A program made the position numbers and the translations under genes. A DNA stretch of 64,000 nt from the NCBI RefSeq assembly GCF_000255115.2, contig NC_018068.1:868001-932000 (forward strand). Reading direction: 5' to 3'. Positions 10,948 to 58,744 of this stretch are shown one piece after another (the first letter of the stretch is position 1; the number at the start of each line of letters is the position of its first letter). The notes below the pieces were generated by a model. The model had not been told where the DNA came from. It was given only the letters and a program-made list of their open reading frames with translations, and did not search any database. This DNA comes from Desulfosporosinus acidiphilus SJ4. Lineage in GTDB: Bacteria; Bacillota; Desulfitobacteriia; Desulfitobacteriales; Desulfitobacteriaceae.

Positions 10948-11180
10948 TGCTTTTCTCTAAAATAAAGTATTAATATAAGTCGTATACTAATCAAACAAAA
11001 CTTTTTCTTCCACTAGTTACATAATGTGACAAATTAGAACAGTATATCTATGTTATACTACACATAAAGAGTTTTAGAACAAAAATGTTTATTTTTTGCT
11101 AATTTAATACAAATTAGGAAGTTTAGAAACATGTATTATAATTTGGGCGCTTTATACATGTGGAACAAGTAGCGCAACCG

Positions 11181-11210
11181 GCCTGGTTTTATGAATAAAC
11201 CAGGCTTTTC
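11181..11210 (+). terminator. Terminator-like hairpin upstream of kinase gene
   Basis: GCCTGGTTTTAT / ATAAACCAGGC with a GA loop, followed by TTTTC. It precedes the histidine kinase by about 60 bases, so it could also act as a leader attenuator. Confidence 0.6.
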
Positions 11211-43772: not shown

Positions 43773-43809
43773 AGCCGAACGTTCTGGATGCAAGACTGAT
43801 TAACGTTCG
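43773..43809. promoter_or_regulatory. Inverted PurBox-like pair (candidate PurR operator)
   Basis: CCGAACGTT at 43775-43783 and, in inverted orientation, AACGTTCG at 43802-43809, 18 bases apart and just upstream of the pur promoter. This fits the two-box arrangement bound by Bacillus-type PurR (AWWWCCGAACWWT). Inference from sequence pattern only. Confidence 0.6.
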
Positions 43810-43818
43810 AATTTATTC

Positions 43819-43847
43819 TTGACCTTTACAAGCCCTTCCTGTACAAT
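43819..43847 (+). promoter_or_regulatory. Sigma-A type promoter of the pur operon
   Basis: TTGACC at 43819-43824, spacer 17, TACAAT at 43842-43847. The transcript start would fall about 43854, shortly before the guanine aptamer. Confidence 0.8.
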
Positions 43848-43868
43848 GAACGTAAGAAATAAATAAGA

Positions 43869-43937
43869 GTTCATATAATCGCGGAGATATGGTCCGCAAG
43901 TTTCTACCAGACTGCCGTAAATGGTCTGACTATGAGC
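43869..43937 (+). ncRNA. Guanine-class purine riboswitch aptamer
   Basis: P1 TTCATA / TATGAG, P2 GCGGA / TCCGC, P3 CAGAC / GTCTG. Conserved loops ATATGG, GTTTCTACC and CCGTAAAT, and GACTATG in J3/1. The base matching position 74 is C (43930), which specifies guanine or hypoxanthine, not adenine. First aptamer of a tandem pair that controls purEBCFMNHD. Confidence 0.95.
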
Positions 43938-43940
43938 GAA

Positions 43941-44033
43941 AGTGTACCTAGGGCGATGAGATCGTCCAAGTGGTACAGATTTGATTGCATAATCAAATTA
44001 CACCGAAGGGATAAAAGCCCAGGCGGGTAGGTT
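43941..44033 (+). ncRNA. PRPP riboswitch aptamer (ykkC subtype 2b), in tandem with guanine aptamer
   Basis: Shows ykkC-class landmarks: CCTAGGG, TCCAAGTGGTAC, then ACACCGAAGGGATAAAAGCC and the following CAGGCGGG. A variable stem (TTTGATT / AATCAAA) lies in between. PRPP-sensing ykkC subtypes are known upstream of purine genes and in tandem after guanine aptamers, where they form a Boolean gate: expression when PRPP is high and guanine low. Its 3' strand (AAAGCCCAGGCG) is also the 5' arm of the terminator. Confidence 0.85.
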
Positions 44034-44084
44034 TCACTCTTTCTTTTTAAGGGGGAAATTTACTCGCCTGGGCTTTGATTTTTT
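44013..44084 (+). terminator. Regulated terminator of the pur leader
   Basis: AAAGCCCAGGCGGGTA pairs with TACTCGCCTGGGCTTT and is followed by GATTTTTT. It overlaps the last conserved block of the PRPP aptamer, so PRPP binding prevents terminator formation. Confidence 0.9.
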
Positions 44085-44103
44085 ATGGAAGTGAGGGGTT
44101 TCG

Positions 44104-44601
44104 TTGAATCAGATCGGAGTTATTATGGGCAGCGATTCAGACTACAAAGTGATGGAGGATGCAATCAAGATCCTGAGACAATTTGAACTGGATTTTGAAG
44201 TGAAGATTTCGTCAGCTCATAGAACCTTGGAGCGAACTCTTGACTGGGTCAAAGGCTTTGAGAATCAAGGAGGCAGACTAATTATTGCGGGAGCGGGTTT
44301 AGCAGCCCATTTGCCTGGAGTTATAGCGGGGGCAACGACACTGCCAGTAATCGGTGTCCCCATGAACAGCGGCCCCTTGAATGGCGTCGATGCTCTCTAT
44401 GCTATTGTGCAAATGCCTCCCGGAATACCTGTAGCCACCGTTGGGATTGGCGCTGCCCGTAACGCTGCCTTGCTTGCTGTACAAATTTTAGCTGCAGGGG
44501 ATGATGCCTTGCGAAGGAAGATAAAAAACTACCGAGCCAAAATGGCAGAGGATATTGCTGCTAAGGATGAGGCCTTGCAAAAGAAACTAAACGAAGATTG
44601 A
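44104..44601 (+). CDS. purE: N5-carboxyaminoimidazole ribonucleotide mutase PurE
   Basis: Purine pathway enzyme of 165 residues. Features: VIMGSDSDYKVM, SSAHRTLERT, IAGAGLAAHLPGVIAGATT, VIGVPMNSGPLNGVDAL and IVQMPPGIPVATVGIG, typical of class I PurE. The usual partner PurK is not in this operon. TTG start 44104 after GAGGGG. First gene of the pur operon. Confidence 0.94.
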   Translation: MNQIGVIMGSDSDYKVMEDAIKILRQFELDFEVKISSAHRTLERTLDWVKGFENQGGRLIIAGAGLAAHLPGVIAGATTLPVIGVPMNSGPLNGVDALYAIVQMPPGIPVATVGIGAARNAALLAVQILAAGDDALRRKIKNYRAKMAEDIAAKDEALQKKLNED

Positions 44602-44630: not shown

Positions 44631-45926
44631 TTGATTGACAGGTACACACTTCCTGAGATGGGAGAAATCTGGACAGACGAACACCGGCTTTCTCTGTGGT
44701 TGAAAATTGAAATTGCTGCCTGCGAAGGTTGGGCAAAACTTGGCAAGATTCCTAAGGAAGCCGTTGAGGTGATCAGAGAGCGGGCATCTTTCACTTGGGA
44801 ACGGGTTCAAGCTTTGGAAGAAGTAACACAGCATGATGTTTTAGCGTTTTTAACCAACGTTGCTGAGAATGTGGGCGATGAAGCCAAGTATATTCATCTG
44901 GGCTTAACTTCATCGGATGTTCTCGATACGGCTTTGTCTTTGCAAATGGTTGAAGCAACGGATTTGCTGTTAGCTAAGATGGAGGCCTTGGAGGCGGTTC
45001 TCCGCCGCAGGGCAATAGAACACCGGGATACTTTGATGATGGGACGTACTCATGGAATCCATGCTGAACCTATTACCTTGGGTTTGAAATTTGCCCTCTG
45101 GTACGATGAGATCAGACGCCAGAAAAGACGCCTCGATATTGCCCGCGAAGAAGTGCGGGTGGGAAAAATTTCGGGAGCGGTGGGGACTTTTGCTAATGTA
45201 GATCCCCAAGTGGAAGCCCATGTCTGTCAATCCCTTAACTTGAAACCAGCCTTGATTTCCACCCAAATTCTCCAGCGTGACCGCCACGCTTACTTTATGA
45301 CGACTCTGGCGGGGATAGCCAGTTCCCTCGACAAAATGGCTACCGAAATCCGCAATTTACAGAGAACGGATGTTCACGAAGTTGAAGAAGCCTTCGGCAA
45401 GGGCCAAAAAGGGTCTTCAGCCATGCCGCACAAAAAAAATCCAATCACTCCGGAAAGGATTTGCGGTATGGCCAGGGTTGTACGAGCAAATGCTCAAGTG
45501 GCTTTAGAAAATGTAGCCTTATGGCATGAACGGGATATCTCCCATTCGTCGGCTGAACGGATGATATTACCGGACAGTACTTTGGCCTTATATTATATGC
45601 TTCATAAAATGGTTCAACTCATTGATCGCTTGCAAGTTTTCCCTGAGCAGATGAAGTTCAATATAGACAAAGGCTTGGGATTGATTTTTTCTCAACGGGT
45701 GATGCTGGCCTTAGTGGAAAAGGGCGTAAGCCGCGAAAATGCCTATGCTATGGTGCAGCGCAATGCTATGGAGGCTTGGAACACCAAAGAACAATTTAAA
45801 AACTTAATCAGTCGGGATTCGGCAATTCGCAAATATTTAGATGAAGAACTTATTAATAACCTATTCGACTATGACTATCACACAAAACATGTTGGGGACA
45901 TTTTTGAACGATTAGGGCTAGTTTAG
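44631..45926 (+). CDS. purB: Adenylosuccinate lyase PurB
   Basis: Fumarase-superfamily lyase of 431 residues acting at SAICAR and adenylosuccinate. Signature loop KGSSAMPHKKNPITPERICG; catalytic His regions MMGRTHGIHAEPITLG and TQHDVLAF; LTSSDVLDTALSLQ. TTG start 44631 with AAAGGAG upstream. Placed second in the operon as in Bacillus. Confidence 0.96.
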   Translation: MIDRYTLPEMGEIWTDEHRLSLWLKIEIAACEGWAKLGKIPKEAVEVIRERASFTWERVQALEEVTQHDVLAFLTNVAENVGDEAKYIHLGLTSSDVLDTALSLQMVEATDLLLAKMEALEAVLRRRAIEHRDTLMMGRTHGIHAEPITLGLKFALWYDEIRRQKRRLDIAREEVRVGKISGAVGTFANVDPQVEAHVCQSLNLKPALISTQILQRDRHAYFMTTLAGIASSLDKMATEIRNLQRTDVHEVEEAFGKGQKGSSAMPHKKNPITPERICGMARVVRANAQVALENVALWHERDISHSSAERMILPDSTLALYYMLHKMVQLIDRLQVFPEQMKFNIDKGLGLIFSQRVMLALVEKGVSRENAYAMVQRNAMEAWNTKEQFKNLISRDSAIRKYLDEELINNLFDYDYHTKHVGDIFERLGLV

Positions 45927-46123
45927 GAACCTAGGAATCTAGGAATCTAAGAGCCTAAGAATCTAAGAGTTTAATAAGGACCCAGGTATCCTATGACTTA
46001 ACGAACTTATACCTAAAACCATGCATTTTAAAACTATAACATATCGAAGTAGAGCAAGTTGAGAAAAGGGTCAACTTGTAATGCCCGGCAAAAAAAATTG
46101 ATCGATGGAAAGGGGTAATAACG
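45927..46123. repeat. purB-purC spacer with degenerate 9-10-bp tandem repeats
   Basis: From 45927 the sequence repeats CTAGGAATCTAGGAATCTAA, then AGCCTAAGAATCTAAGAGTT. No terminator is visible, so transcription can continue to purC. Confidence 0.6.
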
Positions 46124-46843
46124 ATGGAAAAATTAGAACTAAAGTATGAGGGAAAAGCTAAGAAAGTCTATGCAACGGATGAAAAGAATTATTATTGGGT
46201 GGCGTATAAGGATGATGCCACAGCGTTTAACGGCGAGAAGAAAGGACAGATTGCTGATAAAGGAGAGGTTAATAACCAACTTTCAGCACTTTTCTTTACG
46301 GAAATTGAAAAAGCGGGAATCCCTACTCACTTTGTTCGCCTGCTAGGGCAGCGGGATATGCTGGTGCGGAAATTGGATATGATTCCCCTGGAAGTTGTTG
46401 TTCGTAATATTGTGGCAGGGAGCTTGTCCAAACGTCTCGGTGTAGAAGAAGGGTTTATTCTCTCCCAGCCTGTCGTGGAATTATATTATAAAGATGACGC
46501 TTTAGGTGATCCCATGGTCAATGAATCACATGTTGCTGCCATGGGATGGGCCAAGCTCGAGATTGCTAAGGAGATACAAGTCATGGGACTGAAGGTCAAT
46601 GAAATTCTGCGCAATATTCTTGCCAAAGCGGGCATTGACTTAATTGATTTTAAATTGGAATTTGGTATTGACAATGGCAAAGTGATTTTGGGTGATGAAA
46701 TATCTCCGGATACATGCCGCTATTGGGACATCAAAACTCGGGAAAAGCTGGATAAAGACCGTTTTCGCCGAGATCTGGGTCAAGTTGAAGAAGCTTATCA
46801 GGAAGTATTTCGAAGGGTCAAAGAGGTCTTGGCAGGACAATAA
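46124..46843 (+). CDS. purC: SAICAR synthetase PurC
   Basis: ATP-dependent ligase of 239 residues joining CAIR and aspartate. Motifs: [69 protein letters not shown] and [17 protein letters not shown] 46124 follows GAAAGGGG. Confidence 0.96.
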
Positions 46844-46867
46844 GCATTCTGTTTGTTGGGGAGGACG

Positions 46868-46915
46868 GCGAAAAATCTCTTAATCTGCATCTGAGATTTA
46901 TGGTTTTTCGCTTTG
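46868..46915 (+). promoter_or_regulatory. Intercistronic hairpin between purC and purF
   Basis: GCGAAAAATCTC pairs with GAGATTTATGGTTTTTCGC. No T run follows, so it may be an RNA processing or stability element rather than a terminator. Confidence 0.5.
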
Positions 46916-46941
46916 TCTCACTATTTTAAGGGGGGACAAAA

Positions 46942-48342
46942 TTGTTCGATTTAAGCCTGGACAAACCACATGAGGAATGTGGCGTCTTTGGGATCTATGC
47001 TCCCAATCAAGAGGTGGCTCGCTTAACCTATTATGGACTCTATGCTCTTCAGCATCGCGGGCAGGAAAGCGCCGGGATCGCTGTTTCTGACGGACATTCG
47101 ATTGAAATTCATAAAGGAATGGGTCTTGTCTCGGAAGTGTTTTCTAACCACATTGTTAAGAATCTACACGGGAAAATGGCTATTGGACATGTTCGTTACT
47201 CAACAACAGGTTCTAGTTTATTGGCTAATGCCCAACCCCTTGTTGTGCACTATCAAAAGGGAATGATGGCCTTAGCGCACAATGGAAATTTAACCAATGC
47301 CAGAGAATTGAGGGAAGAATTAGGTGTGAACGGGGCCGTCTTTCAAACAACGACAGACAGTGAAGTTATTATTAACCTCATTACCCGCTACCGCCGGGAT
47401 TCTCTCGAGGATGCCATTGTCAAGACCATGATGGATTTGCGCGGGGCTTATGCCGTAGTAATTTTAGCAGAGGATAAACTTTTTGGTTTAAGAGACCCCC
47501 ATGGGGTCAGACCTCTTTGCATCGGAAAAAAAGGCGAAAGATATTGTCTGGCCTCAGAGAGCTGTGCCCTTGATACCATAGGTGCTGAGTTCATCCGGGA
47601 TTTAGAGCCTGGAGAAATTGTCATTATTGATGAGGAAGGCTTGCACTCCCGTCGGGGGTTGTCTAAGAATAAGAATGCTTCCTGTGCCTTTGAATATATC
47701 TACTTTGCCCGTCCGGACAGCACCATAGACCAGATAAATGTTTCGGAAAGCCGCTGGAAAATGGGGGTTGAATTAGCCCGTGAATGTCCCATCGACGCTG
47801 ATCTTGTGATTGCAGTTCCGGATTCAGGAACCGCATCGGCTTTGGGATATGCCACAACTCTGGGATTGCCCTTTGGGGAGGGTCTGATCAAAAATCGTTA
47901 TGTCGGGAGAACATTTATTCAACCGACTCAGGAAATGAGAGAAGCGGGCGTTCGTTTGAAACTGAATGCGAATACGAGCGTTCTTAAGGATAAACGAATC
48001 GTTATGATTGATGATTCCATTGTGCGTGGGACCACGAGTTCAAAACTAGTGGCTATGGTGAGAAAAGCAGGAGCTAAAGAAGTTCATTTTCTAATAAGTT
48101 CGCCTCCGGTGGCTTATCCATGTTATTATGGAATAGACACGGCTGAACGGGAAAAGCTGATCGCCAATCGCTTAGATAGAGACGGAATACGACAGTATAT
48201 TGGAGCGGATTCCTTGCATTATATCTCAGAAGAAGGATTGCTGAGAGCCCTTGGAACGGAGAAGGTGTGCCTGGCCTGTTTTAATGGCGCTTACCCTATT
48301 CCTGTTTCAAACCTGAACCGGGGGAAAAACTCTTGTGGTTGA
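46942..48342 (+). CDS. purF: Amidophosphoribosyltransferase PurF
   Basis: Committed step of purine synthesis (PRPP + glutamine to phosphoribosylamine), 466 residues. A short propeptide precedes the catalytic Cys13 in HEECGVFGIY. Four Cys expected for the Bacillus-type [4Fe-4S] cluster are visible in NASCAFEYIYFA, VAYPCYYGID and VCLACFNGAYP. The PRPP loop is IVMIDDSIVRGTTSSKL. TTG start 46942 after AAGGGGGG. purF comes directly after purC here: no purS, purQ or purL. Confidence 0.96.
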   Translation: MFDLSLDKPHEECGVFGIYAPNQEVARLTYYGLYALQHRGQESAGIAVSDGHSIEIHKGMGLVSEVFSNHIVKNLHGKMAIGHVRYSTTGSSLLANAQPLVVHYQKGMMALAHNGNLTNARELREELGVNGAVFQTTTDSEVIINLITRYRRDSLEDAIVKTMMDLRGAYAVVILAEDKLFGLRDPHGVRPLCIGKKGERYCLASESCALDTIGAEFIRDLEPGEIVIIDEEGLHSRRGLSKNKNASCAFEYIYFARPDSTIDQINVSESRWKMGVELARECPIDADLVIAVPDSGTASALGYATTLGLPFGEGLIKNRYVGRTFIQPTQEMREAGVRLKLNANTSVLKDKRIVMIDDSIVRGTTSSKLVAMVRKAGAKEVHFLISSPPVAYPCYYGIDTAEREKLIANRLDRDGIRQYIGADSLHYISEEGLLRALGTEKVCLACFNGAYPIPVSNLNRGKNSCG

Positions 48343-48375
48343 AAACGATTGACGAAACGTAGGGAGGAATCAAAG

Positions 48376-49389
48376 GTGGGATACTCTTACCGAGATGCTG
48401 GTGTTGATATACAAGCTGGAAATGATGCCGTCGAATCTATAAAACCGGCTGTTGCACGAACGCTTCGTCCGGAAGTGTTAGGTGGGCTTGGCGGATTTGG
48501 AGGGCTCTTTAAACTGAATTTGGAAAAGTATCCGGATCCCGTTCTTGTATCAGGAACCGATGGCGTGGGGACTAAGCTCCGCCTCGCCTTTCAAATGAAC
48601 CGTCATGATACCATAGGGCAAGACGCAGTCGCTATGTGTGTTAATGATATCCTGGTACAAGGTGCGGAGCCGCTGTTTTTCCTCGATTATCTTGCTGTAG
48701 GAAAGGTCTTACCCGCCAGAGTGGCTGAAGTCGTCGGCGGGGTTGCCAGGGCTTGTGAAATGGCCGGCTGCGCCTTAATCGGAGGAGAGACGGCAGAGAT
48801 GCCGGGCTTCTATGCTGAGAATGAATATGATATTGCAGGATTCTCAGTGGGGGTCGTTAACCGTGATCAATTGATCGACGGTTCGACTATTCAAGCCGGG
48901 GATGTCCTCATTGGCTTGCCTTCTAACGGACTGCACAGCAATGGCTATTCTTTAGCAAGAAAACTATTTGAGAGCTATTCTTTGGAAGAAGTTTTGCCCG
49001 AGCTGGGAGAACCTTTAGGTGAGACACTGCTAAGACCTACGCGAATTTATGTCAAGACAATTTTGTCACTCCTTTCCGAGAAGAAAATTAAAGGGATGGT
49101 ACATATTACGGGGGGAGGACTCACGGAGAATATTCCCAGGATCTTACCCTCCGGTCTAGGGGTTAAGATCGATCCGACGTCTTGGCAGCGACCCGCAATA
49201 TTCGATTTGCTGCAACGCATAGGGGATGTTGCTTGGCCTGAGATGTATCGAACGTTCAACATGGGTATCGGATTTGTGATTATTGTCAGCAGTAACGATG
49301 AAGAGACGATACGTCAGAGACTGGCTGAGATGGGTGAATTGAGCTATGTTATTGGGTATGTTGCTCCAGGAGTAGGTGTTACTTATTGA
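48376..49389 (+). CDS. purM: Phosphoribosylformylglycinamidine cyclo-ligase PurM
   Basis: AIR synthetase of about 337 residues. Motifs: [65 protein letters not shown] and [17 protein letters not shown] chose GTG 48376 because GGGAGGA precedes it; the frame reaches TTG 48349, which has no ribosome site. Overlaps purN by 4 bases. Confidence 0.95.
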
Positions 49390-49982
49390 GAACCGCGGTG
49401 TTAGCTTCCGGGAGAGGGAGCAATCTTAAGGCATTGCTTGAGGCTCAGAAAAGGGGAGAGCTGCCGATTAAGATTGTTGCTGTGGGTTCAGATCAACCCA
49501 AGGCCGCAGCCCTCGAATTGGCGAAGGACAATGGAATTCCAACTCAGGTTTTTGCTCCAGCCGATTATCCAAACCGTCAAGCTCAAGATGAGGAACTCTT
49601 AATCTGGTTGAAAGAAAACCAAGTTGAGCTGCTGCTTTTAGCAGGCTATATGCGGGTTTTAGGCCCTCAGTTTATTCGACAGGCTAATATTCCAGTCTTA
49701 AATATTCATCCGTCATTGCTTCCTGCCTTTCCGGGACTCCATGCCCAGCGGCAGGCTTTGGACTATGGTGTCAAGGTCAGTGGTTGTACGGTACATTTCG
49801 TTGATGAGGGTTTAGACAGCGGACCGATTATATTGCAGGAGGCAGTGCCTGTTTTGGCAGAGGATACAGAAGACAGTTTAGCGCAAAGGATATTAGAAGC
49901 AGAACATCGTCTCTACCCGGAGGCTGTCCGTCTCTTAGCTTCCGGATGCGTAAAAAGAGTAGGGCGCCGGGTTCGGATATAG
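49386..49982 (+). CDS. purN: Phosphoribosylglycinamide formyltransferase PurN
   Basis: 10-formyl-THF-dependent GAR transformylase of 198 residues. Motifs: [44 protein letters not shown] (catalytic Asn/His) and [18 protein letters not shown] (catalytic Asp). TTG start overlaps the purM stop. Confidence 0.95.
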
Positions 49983-49999
49983 TAACTGGAGGGTTTAGA

Positions 50000-51541
50000 A
50001 TGAAGCGAAGAGCCATTATCAGCGTATCGGACAAGACAGGAATTGTTGCTTTTGCTCAAGGACTTGCAGAGCTGGGATTTGAACTCATTTCCACGGGGGG
50101 GACTTTTAAAGTCCTGGAAGAAGCCAACATCCCCGTCAAATATGTCAGCGAGGTTACAGGATTTCCTGAAGTTTTAGGCGGTAGGGTGAAGACCCTCCAT
50201 CCTTTGATTCATGGGGGAATTCTGGCTCGAGATATTGCAGAGCATCGTGAGGAAATGGAGCAAAATGGAATCGGTTTTATTGATTTAGTTGTGGTGAATC
50301 TCTATCCATTTCGAGAAACAATCTCTAAATCAGGAGTTAGTTTTGAGGAGGCCATCGAAAACATTGATGTAGGAGGACCGACTATGGTTCGGGCCGCTGC
50401 TAAAAATCACGGCAGGGTTACCGTACTCGTTAATCCCAAATCCTATGAAGAAATATTAAATGTTTTACGGGAAAATGGAACTGTTTCAGCCGGTATGCGC
50501 AAAAGATTAGCTGCAGAGGCCTTCGCTCATACGGCAGAATATGATCGTCTGATTGCCAGTTATTTAGAACGGCAGCTTGAACCCGTCGGTGGTTTTCCCA
50601 GAACGCTGCGCCTTACCGCCCGCAAAGTTCAAGAATTGAGATATGGAGAAAATCCTCAGCAAAAGGCCGCTTTTTATATAAATTCTGAGGCTGCTCCCGG
50701 CAGTTTGGCAAGAGGTGAACAGCTTCAAGGGAAAGAGCTTTCCTACAACAATTGGGTGGATATGGATGCTGCCTGGAAAATTGCCCGGGAGTTTGATTCC
50801 TGTGCTGCGGCGATTATCAAACATACCAATCCCTGCGGTGTAGCCTTGGGAAGCACCCCCTTGGAAGCCTATCAAAGTGCTTTGGCTTCGGATCCGGTTT
50901 CTGCTTATGGCGGAATTATCGCTTTAAACCGGGTCATGGACGGAACCTGTGCCGAGGCAATTAAGCAAAGCTTCTATGAAGTGATCGTGGCACCGGATTT
51001 TAGTCCTGAGGCACGGGAAATTTTAAGCGCTAAAGCCAATCTCCGTCTTTTTGCAGTTGGCAGGGGGGAAAATGAAGTAAATTCTCGCTGGATGTTGAAA
51101 AGTATTGACGGAGGGTATCTGGTCCAGGAAGTGGATCGGGGAACAACTCATGTTGATGAATGGGAATTCATAACCCAGCAAAAGCCAACAGAAGAAGATT
51201 TAAAGGCACTCGATTTTGCTTGGCGTGTTGTCAAACATGTTAAGTCAAATGCCATCGTTGTAACAGATTATCGTCAGACCTTAGGTGTTGGAGCCGGACA
51301 AATGAATCGGGTAGGCTCGGCTAAGATTGCTATAGATCAAGCGGGTGAAAAAGTAAAAGGCGCCTATTTAGCCTCGGATGCCTTCTTTCCCTTTCCGGAT
51401 TCCATTGAAGCTGCTGCCCAAGCAGGGATACGGGCGATTGTTCAACCCGGAGGATCTATTCATGATGCCGAAGTCATTGAAGCGGCGAATCGTTTAAATA
51501 TCATTATGGTCTTTACGCATCGCAGACATTTTCAACATTAG
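50000..51541 (+). CDS. purH: Bifunctional AICAR transformylase / IMP cyclohydrolase PurH
   Basis: Last two steps to IMP; 513 residues. The N-terminal cyclohydrolase has ISVSDKTGIVAFAQGLAELG, ISTGGTFKVLEE and GGRVKTLHPLIHGGIL. The C-terminal transformylase has LRYGENPQQKAAFY, IKHTNPCGVALG, SDPVSAYGGIIALN, GVGAGQMNRVGSAKIA and SDAFFPFPDSIEAAAQAGI. ATG 50000 follows CTGGAGGGTTTAGA. Confidence 0.96.
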   Translation: MKRRAIISVSDKTGIVAFAQGLAELGFELISTGGTFKVLEEANIPVKYVSEVTGFPEVLGGRVKTLHPLIHGGILARDIAEHREEMEQNGIGFIDLVVVNLYPFRETISKSGVSFEEAIENIDVGGPTMVRAAAKNHGRVTVLVNPKSYEEILNVLRENGTVSAGMRKRLAAEAFAHTAEYDRLIASYLERQLEPVGGFPRTLRLTARKVQELRYGENPQQKAAFYINSEAAPGSLARGEQLQGKELSYNNWVDMDAAWKIAREFDSCAAAIIKHTNPCGVALGSTPLEAYQSALASDPVSAYGGIIALNRVMDGTCAEAIKQSFYEVIVAPDFSPEAREILSAKANLRLFAVGRGENEVNSRWMLKSIDGGYLVQEVDRGTTHVDEWEFITQQKPTEEDLKALDFAWRVVKHVKSNAIVVTDYRQTLGVGAGQMNRVGSAKIAIDQAGEKVKGAYLASDAFFPFPDSIEAAAQAGIRAIVQPGGSIHDAEVIEAANRLNIIMVFTHRRHFQH

Positions 51542-51579
51542 TTTTCTAAAAGGTTACTTTTGGGTGACGGGGTGAAAAC

Positions 51580-52848
51580 ATGAAAAAACTTCGAGTATTA
51601 GTTATTGGAAACGGTGGGCGAGAACACGCTCTAGCCTGGAAGCTTTTCCAGAGCCAGGAGCTGGAACGTCTCTTTGTTGCGCCCGGAAATGCCGGGACAG
51701 AACCTTGGAATGTTCCTGTTTCGGCTCAAGACATACCGGCCCTAGTGGAGTTCGCTTTGAAAGAATCCATTGACTTGACTCTGGTTGGTCCGGAAGATCC
51801 TCTGAGTTTAGGAATCGTTGATGCTTTCCGAGAGGCAGGCTTGCGAATTTTTGGGCCCACTAAGGCTGCTGCTCAGCTTGAGGGCAGTAAATCCTTTGCC
51901 AAAACGATTATGGAACAGGCAAACGTTCCCACCGCCAAGTGGGAAGTTTTCGATGAGGCGGATCAGGCAAAAAGGTACATTAAGACCCTTGGTGCCCCAT
52001 GTGTTTTAAAAGCGGACGGCTTAGCGGCAGGAAAAGGTGTCATCGTTGCCATGGATTTGGAGACTGCCCTCCAGGCTGTCGATGAGATCATGGATGGAAG
52101 CTTTGGAGCAGCAGGAAAGAAACTTTTGGTTGAGGAATTTCTCGAAGGACCAGAAGTCAGTTTGCTCTGTTTTGCAGACGGCAATACTGCTTACCCGATG
52201 GTTCCTGTCCAGGATCATAAACGTGCCTTAGACGGCGATCAAGGTCTTAATACCGGAGGAATGGGAACTTACAGCCCACCGCCCTTCTGGACGACAGAGC
52301 TTGAAGAAACGGTGATGAGAGACCTTGTTAATCCAACGTTAAAGGTTATGGCTGAGCTAGGAACCCCATTCCAGGGAGTGCTTTTTCTAGGCCTTATGCT
52401 TACGGAACAAGGTCCGAAGCTCTTGGAATACAATGTTCGCTTCGGAGACCCGGAAACACAGGTGGTTATGAAACGCCTGGAAAGCGATCTTTTACCGGTT
52501 TTATGGGCTTGTACAGAGGGCAGATTGTCTGAAGTCAAGTTGGAGTGGAAAAATGAAGACGCAGTTTGTGTTGTGATGGCTGCCCCTGGTTATCCTGCAA
52601 AGTATCCTAAGGGAATTCCAATCCGCTTGCCGGAGACCAATGACCAGGATTCTGTGATCTTTCATGCGGGTACCATCATGAACCATGGAATACTTGAAAG
52701 TTCCGGCGGTCGCGTTTTAGGAGTTACCGCTGCCGGAAAAACGCTGCAAGAGGCTCGAGAAAAGGCTTATGCCCTTGTGGAAAGCATTGATTTTCCCGAG
52801 GCACATTACCGGCGGGATATCGGCATAAAAGGGTTGAATAATGAGTAG
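51580..52848 (+). CDS. purD: Phosphoribosylamine-glycine ligase PurD
   Basis: ATP-grasp GAR synthetase of 422 residues. Motifs: VLVIGNGGREHALAWKL, VAPGNAGTE, VGPEDPLSLGIVD, VLKADGLAAGKGVIVA, LLVEEFLEGPEVSLLCFADG, HKRALDGDQGLNTGGMGTYS and EYNVRFGDPETQVVM. Last gene of the operon, followed by a terminator. Confidence 0.97.
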   Translation: MKKLRVLVIGNGGREHALAWKLFQSQELERLFVAPGNAGTEPWNVPVSAQDIPALVEFALKESIDLTLVGPEDPLSLGIVDAFREAGLRIFGPTKAAAQLEGSKSFAKTIMEQANVPTAKWEVFDEADQAKRYIKTLGAPCVLKADGLAAGKGVIVAMDLETALQAVDEIMDGSFGAAGKKLLVEEFLEGPEVSLLCFADGNTAYPMVPVQDHKRALDGDQGLNTGGMGTYSPPPFWTTELEETVMRDLVNPTLKVMAELGTPFQGVLFLGLMLTEQGPKLLEYNVRFGDPETQVVMKRLESDLLPVLWACTEGRLSEVKLEWKNEDAVCVVMAAPGYPAKYPKGIPIRLPETNDQDSVIFHAGTIMNHGILESSGGRVLGVTAAGKTLQEAREKAYALVESIDFPEAHYRRDIGIKGLNNE

Positions 52849-57950: not shown

Positions 57951-58744
57951 ACCTTTTCCAGATGGATGGAACTATTTATTGTTATAAGCGCTAATAATCA
58001 CAATTCTTGAAAATACACTGAATACCTTCAGGTTTCCAAAATAAAAGTCAAGTTTTGGGTAACTCTATCCTGGAGGTTCCTGGTAAAAATATCCAGACTA
58101 ACTAAATTTGGAGATATTTCTGGTAAGATTAACTGGCAATCGGGTGGGGGAGAGATAGGCAAAGCTGATATACATAATTATGAAAGCCTTAGGAGCCACC
58201 TTTACACCTGGAGTTCTTTATCCATTCGCATTGGTTGATCAGATCGCCTTTGCTTGAATCCTTGCCATTTTGGTCGAAGCGTTTTAGCCTATTTCCTTCC
58301 TCCAGCGTAACGATTCCTATAGTGATTCACTTTACGTTCTCCAGAGCTTTCTTACTCTAGCAGTTCTCCCAGTTTTAGGCTACTTGGACTTCCACATTGT
58401 CTTGTGAGCTTTCTAATCCGGACGTTACCATCCACGCTAGTCACAATAGAGTTACCCCGAATGGATGGGGTAGCCTTTCGCAATATATCAAGCGACTTCT
58501 TATCGCACTTGCACGCCGCGATCCGAATGAATTCTCAATTGAACATTCGGAAAGTCATATGTTAAGTCATTATAGGTAAAGGTGTTCATGTAGTGGTTTC
58601 CTTCTTTTGGAAAGAATTGTCTTAAAAAGTATACTTTCAACAGGATATATAATAATCCAAGCTAGTCCAATTGTTTTAGTTATCTTAAAGAATTGACCGG
58701 TATTATCTCTAGAACTCTAGACAATATTGTTACCTTTGTACATG
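57951..58744. other. Long stretch without recognisable gene
   Basis: No gene I can support. Short ORFs (for example at 58397) lack ribosome sites and family features. Bounded by two pieces of decayed genes; likely decayed sequence. Confidence 0.5.

Follow-up and report, generated by a model that had tools for sequence, protein, structure and literature searches.

The pur operon of Bacillus subtilis is preceded by a guanine-sensing leader with a terminator, as is predicted for that of Desulfosporosinus acidiphilus, and the B. subtilis leader is not known to contain a PRPP aptamer. Both PurR control of pur operons and the class of guanine-PRPP tandem riboswitches are already known. The latter was published by Sherlock et al. 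in 2018 (PMC5912903), with 192 cases by 2022 (PMC9481103). An earlier reading of the present DNA from its letters, hereafter the sequence-only reading, had taken these tandems as established and as acting in the manner of a Boolean gate; both points agree with the literature, the gate being the published IMPLY gate.

The window, i.e. the whole stretch of 64,000 nucleotides analysed, contains the control region of purEBCFMNHD at positions 43776-44085, comprising a PurBox pair, a sigma-A promoter, a guanine aptamer, a PRPP-type ykkC aptamer and a single terminator. Control of this operon is very probably exerted in three layers, with PurR acting at the PurBoxes and then the guanine and PRPP aptamers over one terminator. 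The parts, their conservation, the bases that they share, purR and its other likely sites were observed. The features of the locus are the following:

43776-43783, + strand: PurBox 1 core CGAACGTT (sequence; CGAA-N26-TTCG spacing enriched upstream of tandem leaders)
43802-43809, - strand: PurBox 2 core (AACGTTCG on the + strand), inverted, 18 bp from box 1 (sequence, spacing)
43819-43847, + strand: sigma-A-type promoter TTGACC-17-TACAAT (matching TTGACC...TACAAT/TAAAAT in leaders of the family of Desulfosporosinus)
43869-43937, + strand: guanine aptamer (RF00167, 87.3 bits; P1 covariation)
43934-44039, + strand: PRPP-type (ykkC subtype 2b) aptamer (purpose-built covariance model, 93.4 bits; residue mapping)
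43934-43941, + strand: P0 5' strand GAGCGAAA, its first four bases (43934-43937) also in the guanine P1 3' strand
44032-44039, + strand: P0 3' strand UUUCACUC, also within the terminator 5' arm
44012-44085, + strand: single, shared intrinsic terminator, stem about 44012-44078, T tract 44079-44084 (T6) (fold and sequence)
44104-44601, + strand: purE, TTG start (TIGR01162, 201.2 bits)
44631-52848, + strand: purB, purC, purF, purM, purN, purH and purD (NCBIfam equivalogs above cutoffs)

The order purE, B, C, F, M, N, H, D given by the sequence-only reading was confirmed, all of these genes matching NCBIfam models above their cutoffs. At window 46843-46942 purF directly follows purC, and the operon has no purS, purQ or purL; FGAM synthase is probably encoded outside the pur operon. 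Elsewhere in the window, a cyclic di-GMP-II riboswitch aptamer was found at 11108-11192 (+ strand, 68.9 bits) and a group II intron D1-D4-7 match at 58336-58472 (- strand, 50.9 bits). In the pur promoter, the -35 TTGACC (43819-43824) and the -10 TACAAT (43842-43847) are separated by 17 nt, and transcription would start near 43854. The leader folds with z = -7.6, its main hairpin being the terminator, which overlaps the P3 and P0 3' strands of the PRPP aptamer. Weak Rfam matches over this terminator, including mir-3179 and bglG, were discarded as chance matches to a long hairpin.

The guanine aptamer lies immediately 5' of the PRPP aptamer, both having one terminator in common. It matched the Rfam Purine model RF00167 with 87.3 bits (gathering score 37) and folds as a three-way junction. 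The earlier description of a textbook guanine aptamer with C at the specificity position was accurate: C74 is at 43930 and U51 at 43905, together with the standard J2/3 GTTTCTACC. P1 is formed by 43869-43875 paired with 43931-43937 and, over 42 distinct leaders, 98.3% of its cells were paired, with 30 double-change cells (0/500 shuffles). On the basis of C74, the ligand of aptamer 43869-43937 is predicted to be guanine and not adenine. A third purine aptamer of this genome (L003 1501-1600; G000:C3:2132748; 65.1 bits) was found before XdhB-like genes. Its pocket is altered, with GTGTCTACG in J2/3 and TCTCTATG in J3/1, and it is possibly a purine riboswitch of variant specificity (cf. PMC9295807).

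The ligands, occupancy and logic of pur control can be inferred as follows. At low PRPP, PurR dimers would occupy the PurBox pair upstream of the -35 and block transcription, judging from the B. subtilis homologue, and a rise in PRPP would release PurR from the PurBoxes. On the nascent RNA, the guanine and PRPP aptamers would compete over one terminator, as published for the class. Guanine-bound P1 would remove P0 and free the terminator arm, switching the operon off; the PRPP-bound aptamer would hold P0 and block the terminator, overriding guanine. PRPP would act twice in series, at the promoter and then at the attenuator, and guanine would be effective only when PRPP is not high. PRPP is probably sensed twice at one promoter, on the DNA and on the RNA, a combination that the sequence-only reading had put forward and that sequence and comparative genomics support.

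Bases common to P1 and P0 are proposed here as a concrete model for the opposed guanine and PRPP signals. Guanine P1 and the P0 of the PRPP aptamer (43934-43941 with 44032-44039) have GAGC, 43934-43937, in common, so that both helices cannot be complete together. Similarly, the P0 3' strand is located inside the terminator 5' arm, making P0 and the terminator mutually exclusive. Over the 42 distinct leaders, P0 was 93.2% paired versus at most 65% when slid, with 2 compensatory pairs; its covariation was not above column shuffle (222/500 for cells paired) because P0 hardly varies, and the main evidence that this helix exists is the published crystal structure (PMC6031431). In D. acidiphilus, it contains one C-A mismatch. 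Swapping P0 partners across loci revealed a modest excess (mean -8.06 vs -7.41 kcal/mol, sd 0.22, 200 swaps). At equilibrium, the fold with the terminator reached -88 kcal/mol versus -60 kcal/mol when constrained to P0, i.e. about 28 in favour of the terminator; a switch of this kind must therefore be kinetic and decided during transcription. Another explanation is that the two aptamers interfere through crowding or tertiary contacts and not through competition for 43934-43937. Steric clash was offered as an alternative by Sherlock et al., and a 2022 review still considered the precise switching mechanism of the guanine-PRPP tandem as unestablished. However, the shared four-base segment has to pair in P1 as well as in P0 and does so in distant genera too, and the P0 strands are retained in leaders devoid of a PRPP core, so crowding appears possible but doubtful.

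Paralogous leaders provide a natural control: up to three PurBox-guanine leaders per genome were found in the family of Desulfosporosinus. This set was selected by PurBox and guanine aptamer, so that what counts as observed is how the PRPP core was lost and the P0 strands kept, and not that the two selected elements persist. The complete PRPP aptamer was present in all 30 leaders before purE, whereas only 2 of the 34 leaders before an xdh-like FAD subunit or a class-V aminotransferase had one (Fisher 6e-16, a value that overstates independence, the species being related and from one family). Systematic presence before purE and frequent loss in paralogues argue for a PRPP override that is specific to biosynthesis. 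Scores of the paralogous leaders with the PRPP model descended from 86.5, 82.9 and 69.4 bits to 30, 26, 17, 11 and finally none. Paralogous leaders mostly retained the P0 strands and the terminator, and several had lost P1-P3 outright yet possessed GAGCGAAA, UUUCUCUC and the terminator. This loss series points to P0 as antiterminator.

D. acidiphilus itself has a second such leader (L002 1420-1790; G000:C3:1074648-1075010), with PurBox, guanine aptamer, a remnant-like second domain in which the PRPP model found no match, and a terminator. It stands before xdh-like FAD, 2Fe-2S and molybdenum subunits, the last of which is XdhA-like (654 bits, below the curated cutoff of 780). The aminotransferase of the other paralogous operons was assigned to class V only. 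The xdh-like and aminotransferase operons likely degrade purines. In the simplest reading, other purine-related operons acquired copies of an ancestral leader with all three parts and had no need of the PRPP override. A changed P3 element was seen in the second domain of several xdh-like and class-V aminotransferase leaders (L068 5155-5480 and 6915-7235; L188, L196, L216, L220, L222, L232); it is common to several Desulfosporosinus species and represents either a relic or a ykkC RNA of new specificity. In several species, the xdh-like leaders had AUACC (C75U) together with GGGUCAGAUCCC and the aminotransferase leaders had a GGGUAAAUUGCGAUCUGCAACCC-like element in common, the P0 strands and terminator being kept in both cases. 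It is nevertheless unlikely that some of these second domains are new ykkC-derived sensors and not mere products of decay.

Concerning the DNA layer, the inverted pair reported before the promoter by the sequence-only reading was found at 43776-43783 and 43802-43809. The sequence CGAACGTT-N18-AACGTTCG corresponds to CGAA-N26-TTCG over 43776-43809 and ends 9 bp before the -35; the pair is inverted, with CGAA cores, in line with known PurR sites, whose 14-bp boxes lie 16-17 bp apart. With N14-20 spacing, the exact pair was the only match in the 4.99 Mb genome (reversed control pattern: 0). A relaxed pattern gave 5 sites genome-wide versus 3 in the reversed control; such counts alone are weak, and gene context carries the case for further sites. 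Pairs with the same N18 spacing were found at C3:4891682, before an operon of an FAD protein, purB2 and purA, and at C3:1074648, before the second guanine-aptamer leader described above. A PurBox-like pair at C3:2085307 (L137 1501-1534), with a TTGACC promoter and before a helicase-like gene, was not counted, the relaxed pattern occurring at chance-level frequency. The genome also encodes PurR (TIGR01743, 326.8 bits, cutoff 258.7), so that the search suggested earlier for purR and additional PurBoxes was positive on both counts. The protein has PuR_N and PRT (phosphoribosyltransferase) domains, matches the solved B. subtilis PurR (1p4a/7rmw) with 274 bits and has an intact PRPP motif IDDFMKAGGT; by these sequence features it is of the B. 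subtilis type.

Comparative data provided stronger support for the DNA layer than genome-wide PurBox counts. CGAA...TTCG was counted at gaps of 0 to 59 in 93 public-genome leaders of tandem pattern whose upstream DNA was long enough: gap 26 occurred 21 times and no other gap more than 4 times; the gap-26 pairs start about 85-132 nt before the aptamer. The survey sample consisted of 250 genomes of the phylum, 96 of them with purR. In 12 of the 250, a guanine aptamer was preceded by a PurBox pair, and all 12 had purR. The tandem pattern was present in 23 genomes, of which 11 had no purR and, among these, none had the PurBox. All three elements were combined in one leader in 4 of the 250 genomes, three from the family of Desulfosporosinus and one (G241) from a distant family. 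By homology, the pair would function at the pur promoter through PurR binding and repression. Since (p)ppGpp competes with PRPP on PurR in Bacillus (PMC8789054), starvation could be a further input at this layer.

About 70 of the 93 tandem leaders were without the exact PurBox pair, indicating that the RNA gate does not need it; the gate could then work while the pair is a relic or serves something else, and PRPP would be read only once. This is very unlikely given the fixed spacing and position of the pair, its strict co-occurrence with purR, its persistence across the genus against a drifting 18-bp spacer (identity 0.53 among purE leaders) and the further sites at the purA and xdh-like operons. 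A PurBox pair operative together with the RNA gate is the reading retained here.

The sequence-only reading had recognized ykkC-type landmarks overlapped by a terminator and had proposed a scan for subtype 2b. Its PRPP assignment was accepted by a purpose-built covariance model, but the Rfam search over the second aptamer yielded no PRPP match. The only related model, Guanidine-I RF00442, gave 45.9 bits (cutoff 63), a below-cutoff match as expected for a non-guanidine ykkC RNA. The purpose-built model was derived from 24 PRPP-type aptamers from tandem leaders outside the family of Desulfosporosinus, the assignment of these training RNAs to PRPP coming from their architecture and conserved residues and not from ligand tests. 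It matched 43934-44039 at full length (93.4 bits, E 2.1e-26), and the region has the ykkC fold with the conserved sequences 5' of P1 and 3' of P3 that form P0. PRPP-diagnostic residues were identified by our own mapping of the RF00442 alignment to the positions of PMC6031431: the pyrimidine of position 49 is U43971 (T in the DNA), C75 is C44001, within ACACC at 44000-44004, and G96 is G44022. Guanidine-I aptamers have A at the position-46/49 site, occupied here by U43971. G96 is conserved in >97% of PRPP aptamers and discriminates PRPP from ppGpp (PMC6031431); an equivalent G was kept in the tandem cores aligned. The residues separating PRPP from ppGpp and guanidine aptamers are thus of the PRPP type in 43934-44039. 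A different ligand for this ykkC RNA, be it ppGpp (subtype 2a) or that of an unassigned subtype, could be envisaged from the Rfam result and from the very small difference between PRPP and ppGpp aptamers (PMC6031431), but it is highly improbable in view of the deciding G at 44022, kept in aligned tandem leaders, the pyrimidine at position 49 that speaks against guanidine, a tandem partner and pur genes typical of the PRPP class, and the score of the purpose-built model. The overlap with the terminator is consistent with this PRPP-type aptamer acting as an ON switch. In some species, a loop of the PRPP aptamer, or of one of its paralogues, carries an inserted hairpin-forming repeat, ACTAGTCAGAAAGTATAA.../AGAAAGCATAA... 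(L187, L204, L243, L246; L214, L219), which resembles a small mobile element that the riboswitch tolerates.

Combined control by PurR and a guanine-PRPP tandem appears undescribed in the open-access literature searched: the text of PMC5912903 mentions PurR 0 times, and no paper naming both 'PRPP riboswitch' and PurR was found there. Less known features are the fixed PurBox spacing upstream of tandems, the four bases shared by P0 and P1, and the loss of the PRPP aptamer in paralogous leaders. The PurR-tandem combination can be tested, as can the shared-base model and the series of losses in paralogues; all three are informative, without being surprising in kind. If PurR is coupled to the RNA gate, PRPP would govern one operon both at initiation and at termination, with guanine inserted between, and the pur leader offers a compact case for asking why there are two PRPP sensors. 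The paralogous leaders represent a natural experiment on the PRPP aptamer, and the shared-base model makes the switching step of the tandem class directly testable.

Compared with the published guanine-PRPP tandem (PMC5912903), the D. acidiphilus leader has the same aptamer order, near-zero spacing, single terminator overlapping the PRPP aptamer and downstream purine biosynthesis genes. It differs from the published description by the PurBox pair and promoter directly upstream, and the P1/P0 base-sharing proposed in the present analysis goes beyond it. With the B. subtilis pur operon (PMC8789054), it shares the inverted-repeat PurBox pair just upstream of the -35 and a PurR of the kind released by PRPP, but, unlike in B. 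subtilis, its leader is predicted to sense PRPP on RNA too. P0, the pyrimidine at position 49 and C75-G96 are as in the T. mathranii PRPP riboswitch structure (PMC6031431; 6CK5); whereas that crystal contained an isolated aptamer, the P0 5' strand of D. acidiphilus is shared with the guanine aptamer.
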